Position numbers and translations under genes: made by a program | In this document: positions 172 to 38,105 of the stretch, one piece after another | Layout of the letters: the number at the start of each line of letters is the position of its first letter | How positions within the stretch are numbered: position 1 is the stretch's first letter | Notes under the pieces: model-generated | The model's input: only the letters and a program-made list of their open reading frames with translations | What the model was told of the DNA's origin: nothing | The model's database searches: none | Assembly: GCA_020053305.1 (NCBI GenBank) | Contig: JAGVNJ010000012.1 | Coordinates: forward strand, 1-50,194 | Origin: Candidatus Edwardsiibacteriota bacterium | GTDB taxonomy: Bacteria > Edwardsbacteria > AC1 > EtOH8 | Reading direction: 5' to 3' | DNA: 50,194 nt

Positions 172-302
172 ATCATGTCCTCCCTTCGTTGCCGTGGCTG
201 AACTTGCCCTTACACTTCACTCTACTAAAGCATTATCAGAGAGCCTGCACTGAGATAACAGATTATTATTGCATACGAAGTGGGCAGGGGCGGGGTAAAA
301 GA

Positions 303-12648: not shown

Positions 12649-12707
12649 GACCTCACCCTCACTCCCTCCCCGTATCGGGGAGGGAAGCCGGAAGGCAGGG
12701 AGAGGTC
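12649..12707. repeat. 59-bp GACCTC repeat, copy 1
   Basis: It begins GACCTCACCCTCACTCCCTC and ends GGGAGAGGTC. An element of the same 59-bp length and closely similar sequence lies in the opposite orientation at 17128-17186 inside the DUF559 gene, and part of one lies in the type IIG gene. Confidence 0.8.
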
Positions 12708-13053
12708 AAGAGCTCGGCCGCGCACCTCCCGGGCCGGTAAATAACAAATGTGGGCCTCCCCGCCATGGCGGGGTTACGGCCACTTTGTCATTCCCGTCCG
12801 ATGAAGCGGCCATTTTCCCCTGGGGTTGGAACCAGTACCCCGCCATCCCTCCTACGCTCTGCTTCGGCGGACAGGCAGTGGAGCGGCTTGACTTCAGCCC
12901 CGATAAAGCAGTCATGGCGCATAGACATCTGGCATGTTCTGGTTCAATGAAGGCCGGGCCTGCTCAGAGAATAGCCCCGCGCTACGTGTGCGAAGGGGCA
13001 TAAGAAAGTATGATTAAATAGGACCGAAGCAATCAGGATCATTTTGTTTTTAT

Positions 13054-16855: not shown

Positions 16856-17011
16856 CAGGCACGGAAGCACTGAATTCATGAAAAGGAAATTGATAATAAC
16901 CACGGGCCTACCAGATATCGCTTAAATATTTTCAATATTTCCGTGTTTTCGCTTACGCTTCCTGCATGCCTTCTTCAAGTGCCATAGCTTTAGCGAAGGC
17001 ACTCAGTGGTT
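16856..17011. repeat. 156-bp dispersed repeat, copy 1
   Basis: It starts CAGGCACGGAAGCACTGA and ends TTTAGCGAAGGCACTCAGTGG. The same ends and a shared block TTCCGTGTTTTCGCTTACGC recur at 37937-38088, while the middle differs. CACGGAA and TTCCGTG inside are complementary. Both copies lie just downstream of a gene's stop codon. Confidence 0.75.
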
Positions 17012-17046
17012 AGTTGAACAAAGGTCTCGATTAATAATAGCCTAAA

Positions 17047-17442
17047 TCAAAGACGCTTGTCAACAGGATATGCCAGTTCCTTTATTCTGGATAACACCCT
17101 TTCGCTCCTGTTAACAACCTCTTCGTTGACCTCTCCCCGCCTGTCGGCTTCCCTCTCCACTGTGGAGAGGGAGTGAGGGAGCGGTCGGAGCTTGTCGTAA
17201 TCCCTTTGTTCCTCATGAATCCCGCCGTCTATTTCGACCACCAAGTTAAGCTCTTCGCAATAAAAGTCAGCTATGAAGCCATGAATGATCTGCTGTCGTC
17301 TGAAATGCAGCCCCATGAATCTATCGGTTTTAACCGCATTCCAAAAACATTTCTCGGCCAAAGTCATATTACTCCGCATCCATTTGGCCAATTCTAATTT
17401 ATTGGACTTAACCTTTTGTAAACGTATTAATCCGCTGGGCAT
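17047..17442 (-). CDS. DUF559 endonuclease-like protein with repeat in its C-terminal region
   Basis: The 131-residue protein begins as a normal DUF559 domain (Vsr/restriction-endonuclease-like fold): MTLAEKCFWNAVK, GLHFRRQQIIHGFIADFYC and VVEIDGGIHEEQRDYDKLR. In the family the segment between YDKxR and NEEV normally holds a strand like GIKVLRF. Here residues 86-105 (RPLPHSLSTVEREADRRGEV) are instead the translation of a dispersed 59-bp repeat, after which the normal NEEVVNRSERVLSRI resumes. The frame stays open. Loss of the core strand may inactivate the protein. It lies beside the type IIG gene. Confidence 0.75.
   Translation of the reverse strand: MPSGLIRLQKVKSNKLELAKWMRSNMTLAEKCFWNAVKTDRFMGLHFRRQQIIHGFIADFYCEELNLVVEIDGGIHEEQRDYDKLRPLPHSLSTVEREADRRGEVNEEVVNRSERVLSRIKELAYPVDKRL
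17128..17186. repeat. 59-bp GACCTC repeat, copy 2, inside the DUF559 gene
   Basis: It has the same length and closely similar sequence to 12649-12707 in inverted orientation, beginning GACCTCTCCCCGCCTG on the plus strand. It is read in frame as part of the DUF559 protein. Confidence 0.85.
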
Positions 17443-17460
17443 GCTAACGCCTTTCGTTTC

Positions 17461-17579
17461 GACCTAACCCCTGCCCCTTCCCCATAGGGAAGGGGTGTCA
17501 GAAGTCCCTTCCCTGGAGCCTGTCCTGAGTTATATGTATATACGGCTGGCGAAGGAGGGAAGGGATTTAGGGTTAGGTC
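17461..17579. repeat. 119-bp element with perfect 10-bp terminal inverted repeats
   Basis: GACCTAACCC and GGGTTAGGTC flank GC-rich internal palindromes (CCCTTCCCCATAGGGAAGGGG at the left). The stop codon of the type IIG gene (17573-17575) lies inside the right terminal repeat. A related fragment (GATTTAGGGTTAG) is found inside the same gene near 19.49 kb. Confidence 0.75.
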
Positions 17580-20500
17580 CCCTCCACCACCTTTATCTCC
17601 GCTTCGCTTAGCCCGTATAACCTGTAAACAATTTGGTCTATCTCGTGGTCTACCGCTGTAATTTTTATGCGGTTATTTTCCCGCAACAGTTTTGTCTTGT
17701 TCAATCCCAAAATTTCAGTTGCCAGTTTAACTATTTTATCGCGGGTTTGCCTTTCACCAGTTGTAGTAACGATTTTTATTGGCAATTGTTCTACATACAT
17801 CGGTTTTGCTTCTATAAACCCGCCAGCCCGCTCTGCAGCTATTGATTTAAGGTACCACCAAAGAAGTTTGGAGTTAAGCACCGCCAGTATAAACTTATCG
17901 TTTGTAGTTAAAATACAAGTTGGCGCATTTATATAATACCCCTCAGTATCAAGAGTAAAAGCAGCACGATCACATAGATTACCCCAACATATTTTTTTCT
18001 TTTCAAATTCATTGTAATATACGCATGAGCGCAATTCCCACCAGTACTCGCCCATATCATACCTTTTCATTGCTTGTGTCTTGAATTGGCTTAAATGTTC
18101 AGCCAAAGGTTTATAATTCTTTTCAAGCCAAGCCCATTTATCCTTTTCGGCGCCGGAATTATTTTTAGTCCATCCGTTTGGTATGAGAATTAAATAACGA
18201 CTTTCGTCATTTATTAAATACCTGTTTATGTCCTTGCCAACAAGGTATGGTTTAATTAGTTCTTTGCATTTCCCGCTTTGGTTAATTATCTTATTTTTGG
18301 TCTCTTCATTTATTATGAAAGCTTCATTTAAACCAGTTATTATACCTCGTAATACCTTTAAGCCATATAATTTTATCAGAGGTATCCCTGCTATTTTTAC
18401 CTTATTTATTAATTTTGTTTCCTCAACATTTTTCAAAATCCATATATTCCCATCAAGTACATTTTTATCTATATCGTATTGTATTTTTTCTATATGTGCT
18501 GAAAGTCTATTAAAATCTATGGTTTCAACGTTTGCCATGGAAAACGATTTACGTGGTGCCCCACTTTTTATCACTATTATACAAGGATAGATGGTTACTT
18601 GATCAAATACCGGGAGATCACCAAAATCAATGAGTTTTACAATTTCTTTCTCTAAAACCCATTTCCGGAATTGTTTGCCGTAATTTGCCCTAAACCATTT
18701 ATTGGGGACGATAAAACTGAAATACCCATTTTTATTAAGCAAACCAACTGATTTTTCCACGAAGTAAACATATAAGTCTGAGTTTGTATCAAATACCTTA
18801 TAGTTGGCGGAAAAATAATTTTTATAAATCCCTAACCCTTCCCTACGCACGTAGGGCGGATTGCCTATTACCGCATCAAAGCCGCCCTGTTCGAATACTT
18901 CCGGAAATAGGACCTCAAAATTAAGCGGGTGCTGTTCATCCGGTTTGCTGAAATAATCAGCCAGGTTGCCGTTCAATCTGCGATTCAGCGTTATTTCTGT
19001 GCTTTGTATGTCATCCCACAATTTATGTTTTACCGCATCATCGCTGGCCTTATAAAACTGCTTATGCAGTTTTAAAAGCTTTACCACATCCCCATCGGTT
19101 TCATAAACGTTGAACATGTTCAACTGTTCCTGGTCGGCAAGCGATTTGCCGGATATAAGCGAATTCCCGTGGCGTATATTAAGGTGCAGGCTGGGCAACA
19201 GTTTCCGTCCCTTCAGTTCGTCCCACCTATGCTTGTCTAATGCCTTCAACATCAAATTAAGCTTGCATATCTCCACCGCCCGCTGGTCCAGGTCCACGCC
19301 GTAAAGGTTGTGCTGTAAAATGGTCCGCTTTATGTCAAAATCCTTTTTATCCGGGGCAGCCTTTTTATAGGCGGCGTGAAACCTGTCGAAGGCATTGATC
19401 AAAAACGAGCCCGAGCCGCAGGCCGGATCCAGCACTTTTATTTTCTTTATTTCGTCGAAGGATAAGTCCCTTCCCTCACGGGGAAGAGATTTAGGGTTAG
19501 TACCGGCACCAGGGGTTGACCTCTCCCCTGCCCACTTTCGCTTGCCATCTTCTTTGGCCTCACTCAGTGCAGGCTCTCTCCCGGAAGGAGAGGGATTTAA
19601 TAATTCCCCCACCGTATTGGTGACAATGTAGTCCACGATATATTCCGGGGTGTAATAGATGCCCTGGCTCTTGCGCTTGAATTTAGCCTTGTCCTCGCGC
19701 ACCTTTAGGCCCTGCTTCTTGCCGCCCCTCAGCATCTCGCCCAGATAATCCTCGTAAACATCGCCGATTATGTTGACCGGCAGGCGGGAGAAATCCACCG
19801 AGGCCAGTTCGGAAACTATGGGCGCCAAGATTTCGTTGCTTATTTCAAAACCATTGATATATTTATCATTCTCAAACAGGTCGGTGTTGAACCTGTCGTC
19901 CATGGTAACAAACCACTTTTTCAACTCATCATAGACCTGCTTCTTGGTATAAAGGATGGAATCATGGGCGTTGGGGCCGATGATCCTTTTATCGTGGCAG
20001 ACATCTATAAAGATCATCCGGTCCAGTATCTTTTGGGCGTAGAGGTCTATCTTTTCCTTATCCGGCAATAGCTGGTTGTTTTTGGTCCATAATTCGGAGC
20101 GCAGGGATTCGCGCCAGTCCTTGAGCATTAAAAAGAAATCATCCCTTATGCTTTTTTCTTCGGGGTAGTAAATTTTATCCTGGGTAATTAGGCCCTGCGC
20201 TTTGCAGAAAGGATGGCGTTTAAATGTATTGAGAAAAGCCAAGCCCTCTGGCGAAAGAAGATCAATGTAACCGCTCTTATCAGTACCCTGCCATAAGAGA
20301 TCATGGAAGGCATATTTTTTATTTTGATATATCTGCCCGTGCTTGACTGTATAAAGCCGCCATTCGATAAAGTTGGTCAAGACCCCCCAATAAACGCCTT
20401 CGGCTTTGCAGTAATTTATCAACTGCTGTTCGAAAGATTTTTTATTCTTTCCGGAACCATAGTATCCGTCAAGCTTTTTTGCATTACCTGCATCCTTGCA

Positions 20501-20731
20501 TTCCACTACCAACAGGGTCCATTTATTGGCATCCTTTAAAAGAATGTCGGGCACCTTGCCGGTGGCCACATCCTGCCGGTCGCCCTGGGCCATGCCCCCG
20601 TCATTCCAATCCAGCATTTCCAACACTTTTACCACATAGCTGGATTGTACCTGCATTTCCGACAAATTATAAATGTCCCGGGTTTTGGCCTGGGCCACTA
20701 ATTTTTGCAAGGCAATTTTTAGATTGGACAT
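17573..20731 (-). CDS. type IIG restriction-modification enzyme
   Basis: This 1052-residue enzyme joins cutting, methylation and sequence recognition in one chain. An N-terminal PD-(D/E)xK nuclease has P61-D62 and E77-C78-K79. A helical region follows, then the N6-adenine methyltransferase with DPACGSGSF (about 431-439) and NPPYVRR. A TaqI-like C-terminal part probably contains target recognition (GGFIEAKPMYVEQLPI). Such enzymes defend against foreign DNA without a separate methylase gene. Residues about 379-421 (NPSPSGREPALSEAKEDGKR onward), just before motif I, are translated dispersed repeat. The stop codon lies in another repeat. Surrounding sequence is less GC-rich than average. Confidence 0.92.
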   Translation of the reverse strand: MSNLKIALQKLVAQAKTRDIYNLSEMQVQSSYVVKVLEMLDWNDGGMAQGDRQDVATGKVPDILLKDANKWTLLVVECKDAGNAKKLDGYYGSGKNKKSFEQQLINYCKAEGVYWGVLTNFIEWRLYTVKHGQIYQNKKYAFHDLLWQGTDKSGYIDLLSPEGLAFLNTFKRHPFCKAQGLITQDKIYYPEEKSIRDDFFLMLKDWRESLRSELWTKNNQLLPDKEKIDLYAQKILDRMIFIDVCHDKRIIGPNAHDSILYTKKQVYDELKKWFVTMDDRFNTDLFENDKYINGFEISNEILAPIVSELASVDFSRLPVNIIGDVYEDYLGEMLRGGKKQGLKVREDKAKFKRKSQGIYYTPEYIVDYIVTNTVGELLNPSPSGREPALSEAKEDGKRKWAGERSTPGAGTNPKSLPREGRDLSFDEIKKIKVLDPACGSGSFLINAFDRFHAAYKKAAPDKKDFDIKRTILQHNLYGVDLDQRAVEICKLNLMLKALDKHRWDELKGRKLLPSLHLNIRHGNSLISGKSLADQEQLNMFNVYETDGDVVKLLKLHKQFYKASDDAVKHKLWDDIQSTEITLNRRLNGNLADYFSKPDEQHPLNFEVLFPEVFEQGGFDAVIGNPPYVRREGLGIYKNYFSANYKVFDTNSDLYVYFVEKSVGLLNKNGYFSFIVPNKWFRANYGKQFRKWVLEKEIVKLIDFGDLPVFDQVTIYPCIIVIKSGAPRKSFSMANVETIDFNRLSAHIEKIQYDIDKNVLDGNIWILKNVEETKLINKVKIAGIPLIKLYGLKVLRGIITGLNEAFIINEETKNKIINQSGKCKELIKPYLVGKDINRYLINDESRYLILIPNGWTKNNSGAEKDKWAWLEKNYKPLAEHLSQFKTQAMKRYDMGEYWWELRSCVYYNEFEKKKICWGNLCDRAAFTLDTEGYYINAPTCILTTNDKFILAVLNSKLLWWYLKSIAAERAGGFIEAKPMYVEQLPIKIVTTTGERQTRDKIVKLATEILGLNKTKLLRENNRIKITAVDHEIDQIVYRLYGLSEAEIKVVEGT
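19469..19597. repeat. repeat inserted in frame in the type IIG gene
   Basis: This 129-bp stretch combines pieces of two intergenic repeat types in this window: AAATCCCTCTCC...GGGGAGAGGTCAAC and CCCTAAATCTCTTCCCC on the minus strand. It is a multiple of three, has no stop in the coding frame and adds 43 residues between the helical region and methyltransferase motif I. Confidence 0.75.
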
Positions 20732-37820: not shown

Positions 37821-38105
37821 GAATGCTCCTTGCCTTCTGATTTATTGTTGCTTCTGCAAAAGCGTTTTCTTTCGTATGACAAGTATTGCTGCATTACTCA
37901 CGCCGGAATTTACTCTGAGGCTAGCGAAGGGACGTGCAGGCACGGAAGCGCTGATTTTCGGAACAATAATCCCGAAAAAAACGGTTTTAGGCCCTGGCCT
38001 TGGTATTTTCGGTAGTTCCGTGTTTTCGCTTACGCTGCTTGCAGGTCTTTTTCAAGTGCCGTAGCTTTAGCGAAGGCACTCAGTGGTTTGTTTAGCAGAG
38101 GTCTT
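37821..38105. other. intergenic region mostly filled by a dispersed repeat
   Basis: Apart from the repeat at 37937-38088 it should hold the promoter of the redox operon in its left 115 bp. I see no convincing -35/-10 pair and no gene. Confidence 0.5.
37937..38088. repeat. 152-bp dispersed repeat, copy 2
   Basis: Starts CAGGCACGGAAGCGCTGA and ends TTTAGCGAAGGCACTCAGTGG, matching 16856-17011 in the same orientation. It ends 17 nt before the stop codon of the gene at 38106. Confidence 0.75.

Follow-up and report, generated by a model that had tools for sequence, protein, structure and literature searches.

Rickettsia palindromic elements (RPEs) are palindromic repeats that can lie in frame within genes and thereby add peptide segments to the encoded proteins, as stated in the passages of PMC10969869 that cite Ogata 2000 and 2002. 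Intragenic REPs tagged with GTAG or CGTC are hairpins that carry a tag on one side and occur singly, in pairs or in clusters (Di Nocera 2013; PMC3733652). Such REPs encode 20-82 residues within ORFs and have been proposed to serve as flexible linkers, and insertion at the same site has been recorded once, in recB of Xanthomonas (PMC3733652). The same study noted REP-tagged repair and replication genes and described CGTC REPs that lack a dedicated transposase (PMC3733652). In a third type of system, the RAYT/REP 'REPtrons' and REPINs, inverted hairpins surround a gene, solitary hairpins are dispersed, and each enzyme clade has its own type of hairpin.

The locus described here lies in a window of 50,194 nucleotides, the whole stretch of DNA analyzed, from a Candidatus Edwardsiibacteriota genome. 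As with RPEs, a palindromic repeat is present in frame within an ORF and is missing from homologues, a likeness in the pattern of insertion. Unlike RPEs, the repeats have another host and sequence, carry GGTC-type tails, have a candidate partner nuclease, and occur at a recurrent site in one enzyme family. The GTAG/CGTC REPs differ as well, in that the hosts here are restriction-modification (R-M) enzymes, and the tabulated tail types end in GGTC, GTTC or GTGTCC, which places the elements outside the CGTC group. The RAYT/REP arrangement is matched in that a repeat flanks the gene and its type co-varies with enzyme clade, but the enzyme is a DUF559 protein (PD-(D/E)XK, Vsr-like) and not a Y1 HUH transposase. 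Features typical of MITEs are also present, including terminal inverted repeats (GACCTAACCC...GGGTTAGGTC and GACCTCACCC...GAGGTC), a noncoding nature and a high copy number of about 75 hairpins.

The explanation in which we have considerable confidence is that type A and F hairpins, and then a nested B element, landed in a loop of a type IIG restriction enzyme, and that they belong to a REP-like system with DUF559 as the probable partner. Small mobile elements of types A and F would have entered the codons for the loop that leads from the helix of motif X to the strand of motif I, and a 42-nt B element would have nested in the insert later. In the literature searched, which left most subscription journals outside, there was no report of the IIG linker as a landing site in multiple phyla and nothing relevant on IIG repeat insertions and partner nucleases, and no link between DUF559 and repeats was recognized in titles and abstracts. 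In-frame intragenic REPs are already known; what appears to be new within that literature is the hot spot in the IIG linker and the pairing with DUF559.

Repeat modules within a type IIG gene

The host gene encodes a predicted type IIG enzyme, with endonuclease, N6-adenine methyltransferase and specificity domain in a single chain. Pfam matches include Eco57I (residues 474-709), TaqI_C (827-985) and N6_Mtase, with a weak N-terminal match to HSDR_N, and PADLOC assigns the protein to REase_MTase_IIG (E 6e-98). A structure model based on 66 aligned sequences (mean pLDDT 87, pTM 0.83) was used, and a model from 10 sequences was discarded (pLDDT 51). The nearest solved structures are CamA, M.BseCI, BrxX, BpuSI, MmeI and DrdV, all of which have the fold and the gamma-type N6-adenine methyltransferase motifs in common with the window enzyme. 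Fused nuclease and specificity domains are a further likeness to this group, from which the window enzyme differs in having a repeat-derived connection from motif X to motif I (Table 1).

Table 1. Coordinates of the genes and repeat elements discussed, numbered from the first nucleotide of the window
Feature	Position	Strand	Remarks
Copy of the B element, type A-like tail, intergenic	238..299	+	in-window relative
Type A element, GACCTCACCC-hairpin-GGGAGAGGTC, intergenic	12649..12709		in-window relative
DUF559 nuclease gene, type F clade	17050..17442	-	PF04480, E 1.7e-23; tree
Type A element within DUF559 gene	17126..17186	-	in-window relative; has replaced conserved (D/T)xIINQYGIKVIRF
Type F element, GACCTAACCC ... 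GGGTTAGGTC, with nested B copy	17461..17579		in-window relative; supplies the IIG stop TAA, 17573-17575
Type IIG restriction-modification enzyme gene	17573..20731	-	1052 aa; Eco57I / N6_Mtase / TaqI_C
Composite in-frame repeat segment	19469..19597	-	approximately residues 379-421; disordered linker, motif X to motif I
Module 3, type F tail and hairpin ACTAACCCTAAATCTCTTCCCCGTGAGGGAAGG	19469..19501	-	faces the type A unit
Type A tail, GGGCAGGGGAGAGGTC	19518..19533	-	
Module 2, B element	19534..19575	-	length exactly 42 nt, or 14 codons; nested, with type A hairpin and tail on either side
Module 1, type A hairpin AATCCCTCTCCTTCCGGGAGAG	19576..19597	-	22 nt

The preliminary description had called the insert a multiple of three without a stop, which is accurate: the 129 nt keep codon phase 0 and contain no stop. 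One of the three sense frames and one of the three antisense frames are open, and a given frame is open in 18% of composition-shuffled 129-mers. Because its length is a multiple of three and one sense frame is open, the enzyme acquired a spacer of 43 residues and suffered no truncation. The origin from intergenic repeat types that had been claimed for the segment is borne out by dispersed copies, but the proposed number of two types gives way to three modules, namely A, nested B and F. In the sense of the gene, the B element reads AGCCTGCACTGAG...GCGAAAGT, and a 16-nt spacer separates the type A tail from the facing type F unit. Inspection of the insert junctions for a target-site duplication revealed no clear duplication.

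Both hairpins and B elements are dispersed through the 2.59-Mb genome. The pattern CYCTCNCCN{2,14}GGNGAGNG has 75 forward and 74 reverse matches (2 + 2 for a reversed control), which correspond to about 75 places because the pattern is nearly palindromic. A pattern for the B element has 19 matches versus none for its control, and a DNA search with the whole segment retrieves 7 further copies, all partial, from this genome. Most of the 19 B copies are immediately flanked by a hairpin on one side and by the tail of that hairpin on the other. Their ends (GCCTGCACTGAG ... CGAAGTGGG) are conserved, and the 20-22 nt middle varies in almost every copy, being common to only two of the 19 (243-280 and 17518-17554 of the window and 17 other places in the genome, L011-L027). 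A separate family of 101-nt direct repeats, with a GTGCCRTAGCTTTAGCGAAGGCACTCAGTGG core, is represented at 16927-17027 and 38004-38104 by copies that are 87% identical.

Among the hairpin matches listed, 52 places were compared with ORFs. The ORFs with a recognized Pfam domain that were hit in this sample include three IIG enzymes and four DUF559 proteins, among others. A cysteinyl-tRNA synthetase contains one in-frame hairpin, at residue 344 between the catalytic and DALR regions (L169, G000:C14, ORF 635-2047), and three further proteins (NuoF-like, PAP2 and Por_Secre_tail) are hit in an N- or C-terminal region. Wrong start codons may account for hairpins at the N-termini of ORFs.

The structure model places the segment in a flexible part of the enzyme. 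Residues 387-413 form a coil with pLDDT below 50, flanked by a helix at 363-378 (motif X, GIYYTPEYIVDYIV) and a strand at 433-435 (motif I, LDPACGSG). A structure prediction for residues 379-421 had been suggested earlier, together with a position just ahead of methyltransferase motif I, and the model agrees with that position in setting the segment between motifs X and I. The insert loop is predicted to be disordered and outside the methyltransferase core, and the insert would probably be neutral and tolerated by an enzyme that retains activity. Retention of all invariant motif residues of the 66-sequence alignment in a full-length frame, together with the confident full-length model, makes it quite unlikely that the gene is a decaying pseudogene in the course of accumulating repeats, even though R-M genes turn over fast, a repeat has taken the place of a conserved stretch in the neighboring DUF559 gene, and an element also caps the 3' end of the IIG gene.

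Empty sites and the order of insertion

In what follows, G000 is the genome of the window, and G001, G002, G008 and G009 are genomes with related IIG enzymes. The preliminary description had recommended alignment with homologues that lack the segment, and such enzymes exist in G002 and G008 and at G009:C84 and G000:C13. The empty site in G002:C5, from the same genus, is flanked by DNA that is 89% identical upstream and 86% downstream, and the encoded protein is 93% identical to the window enzyme before the segment and 75% after it. In G001:C35 (DNA identity 91%/86%), the insert site is occupied by just one type A hairpin, which differs from that of the window. A more distant relative, G009:C22 (68%/67% in the DNA flanks; a 56%-identical protein), carries an A+F composite from which B is absent. 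Subtraction of the 42-nt B element from the window segment leaves 87 nt, which is exactly the length of the G009:C22 insert, and the two are 89.7% identical.

Two conclusions follow from these alleles. Because A+F is present without B in a distant relative, B arrived later. Furthermore, because the A+F element is 89.7% identical where its flanks are only 67-68% identical, it moved as a unit of its own and not by common descent with the rest of the protein. It entered two distant alleles recently, either by independent insertion or by local exchange. Conservation of the same peptide in distant homologues, which had been named beforehand as the observation that would refute the original claim, was not found, and the recurrence in G009:C22 fits transfer of an element. 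The presence of this peptide in a 56%-identical protein might otherwise suggest an old inherited linker that was lost wherever relatives lack the segment, but this explanation is very improbable, given that it is contradicted by the identity contrast, that the segment is absent from the nearest relatives G001 and G002, and that its modules are dispersed repeats.

An assembly chimera caused by a repeat would be an even less credible source of the segment, although the metagenome-assembled genome is a draft in 77 contigs and repeats are able to cause misjoins. The frame is continuous over both junctions, one orthologue matches both sides, and an A+F composite occupies the same place in an independent genome. 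Since empty, A+F, A+F+B and other repeat-bearing alleles form a natural series in one linker, protein-building by mobile repeats can be tested with real alleles. Downstream of the IIG orthologue in G002 there is an AT-rich ORF, followed by a second copy of approximately 35 C-terminal IIG residues (L058, G002:C5:571165-572376), and comparable C-terminal fragments stand alone in G001, G003, G004 and G009.

The linker as a recurrent landing site

When 76 IIG proteins of many phyla were aligned (994 core columns), 12 were found to have a rare insert, 8 residues or longer, in the loop between motifs X and I, counted after residues 378, 381 or 427. Indels always accumulate in loops, and a repeat nature is proven for just some of the loop inserts in other phyla. 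The insert in an Anaerolineaceae enzyme derives from an unrelated repeat family that matches 34 places in its own genome, and two inserts from Ignavibacteria have a 49-nt piece in common (90% identical). A single weak copy was found for the L139 insert, and a search for a second copy of the L103 insert (Deltaproteobacteria) found none, leaving its repeat origin unconfirmed. Independent origins stand out most within the family of the window enzyme (G000:C2/G009:C22, G001:C35, G000:C23/G003:C5) and in the Anaerolineaceae genome. In the genome of the window, all three full-length IIG genes carry hairpins, compared with 0.26 expected from a uniform spread (P ~0.0025).

The X-to-I linker is permissive for the landing of elements, and different ones have arrived there independently. 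Its recurrent use, like the DUF559 pairing considered below, goes beyond what the preliminary description had claimed. This loop has been hit repeatedly, probably because it is among the few sites at which such DNA gets past selection. The same 76-protein alignment has a second hot spot for inserts immediately before motif IV (FDAVIGNPPY), and hairpin-derived RPLPGPPRIGEG is present in the C-terminal region of two IIG homologues.

Recurrence could also arise if the elements recognized the DNA of the linker and inserted site-specifically, which would be targeting and not tolerance. Type A, A+F and other hairpins do enter within a few codons of a conserved GAA-TTA-TT(A), and both junctions are common to P0001 and G009:C22. 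Nevertheless, we regard targeting as unlikely, given that the unrelated families of Anaerolineaceae and Ignavibacteria use the loop with different codons and that the hot spots before motif IV and in the C-terminal region have no common target sequence. Selection for the insert is likewise a doubtful explanation. In that case, the peptide or an mRNA hairpin would alter the balance of restriction and methylation or gene expression, and nucleases would be hit often for this reason, as the over-representation of IIG and DUF559 among named genes with repeats in this genome and the published REP-tagged repair and replication genes (PMC3733652) could suggest. Inserts vary in length and sequence among IIG enzymes, however, close relatives do without them, the segment is predicted to be disordered, and the over-representation of DUF559 is explained by the elements that flank its own genes.

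DUF559 genes and their flanking repeats

A further early claim, that two adjoining nuclease genes are affected, proved correct, with the qualification that the second gene, which encodes a DUF559 protein, has its GIKVIRF stretch overwritten by the repeat and not a tolerant linker filled. This case is a replacement and not a clean insertion, and the type A element probably disables the protein. PADLOC reports no defense family for this DUF559 protein. A type F element stands between the DUF559 and IIG genes. Because the window DUF559 is of type F and an F element adjoins the IIG gene, the A and F types of the insert match DUF559 clades present in the genome, which has 11 DUF559 genes. In two genomes a type F DUF559 gene is the neighbor of an IIG gene, lying upstream of it in G008 (L298, G008:C203) and downstream of it in the window (17050-20731).

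The over-representation of DUF559 among hairpin-bearing genes led to an examination of DUF559 flanks (loci L206-L216, L247-L310 [63 loci] and L319-L330). For 63 genes with usable flanks in 18 genomes, the two 300-nt flanks were compared by blastn (E up to 0.01). Repeats matching across both flanks were found at 43 of the 63, and many of these are inverted hairpins with tails, with a few pairs representing duplicated host-gene ends and not hairpins (e.g., L262, L293) and others being weak (L261, L301, L304). Paired flank repeats occurred in 4-12% of controls: 20 of 450 random places in three sets (Fisher 8e-32 versus DUF559), 16 of 150 surroundings of repeat loci, and 10 of 83 real ORFs with intergenic flanks, the last taken in part from stretches rich in repeats. 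Paired hairpins also flank 7 of 12 DUF559 genes on the plasmids and megaplasmids of bacteria in culture, and at one other gene a host-gene end is duplicated. The layout is seen in Deinococcus, Sinorhizobium, Azospirillum and Sphingomonas, including inverted repeats of 56 bp on plasmids of Deinococcus proteolyticus (95%) and D. psychrotolerans (98%) and of 114 bp (96%) in Sinorhizobium meliloti.

The type of repeat follows the type of enzyme. On a DUF559 tree, the tail types GATGAGTTC, GTTAGGTC, GTTGGGTC, GTGAGGTC, GTGGTC and GTGTGTC cluster by clade across genera and not by genome, with tag names that were picked after the flanks were read. A tag-free test was based on blastn sharing of a flank repeat between DUF559 genes, with long orthologous matches removed. 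Cross-genome pairs with a common flank repeat numbered 0 of 247 below 35% protein identity and 17 of 25 (68%) above 70%, with intermediate values of 1-3% at 35-50% identity, 16% at 50-60% and 28% at 60-70%. Permutation within genomes reached the observed contrast in 0 of 2000 trials.

RAYT was considered as a partner for the window hairpins and rejected. The genome has five Y1_Tnp matches (L163-L167), and the four whose flanks were tested have other hairpins or none, with types such as AGCCCCGTAGGGGCG at L163 and L164. The tails of the elements in this genome include GTGAGGTC and GTTAGGTC, among others, and its Y1 genes are flanked by other hairpins.

Overall, the analysis suggests that the repeats are DUF559-associated REP-like elements. 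The association is one of position and co-variation, from which we infer that DUF559 proteins might mobilize the elements. The system would be REP-like, its dedicated partner would probably come from the DUF559 family, and every DUF559 clade would have its own hairpin and tail type in its flanks. About as likely as not is the broader proposal that DUF559 proteins are the dedicated enzymes of a large and as yet unnamed class of REP-like hairpins in several phyla, with clade-specific recognition, spread of solitary copies as non-autonomous elements, occasional in-frame entry into coding genes, and IIG linkers as favored surviving sites. DUF559 is thereby proposed as the partner enzyme for a class of palindromic repeats, and if this reading is true, possible partners become available for those palindromic repeats whose transposase is not known. 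If DUF559 proteins act on these hairpins, many small genes annotated as 'endonuclease domain-containing protein' would be components of mobile elements instead of repair genes.

Duplicated host-gene ends were also observed around DUF559 genes, with lengths of 23-134 bp and identities of 72-100% (L206, L214, L255, L256, L262, L277, L289, L293, L330). These look as if insertion had carried or regenerated the end of a gene. A CxxC-encoding 5' end is common to the sites beside L206, L255, L262 and L289.
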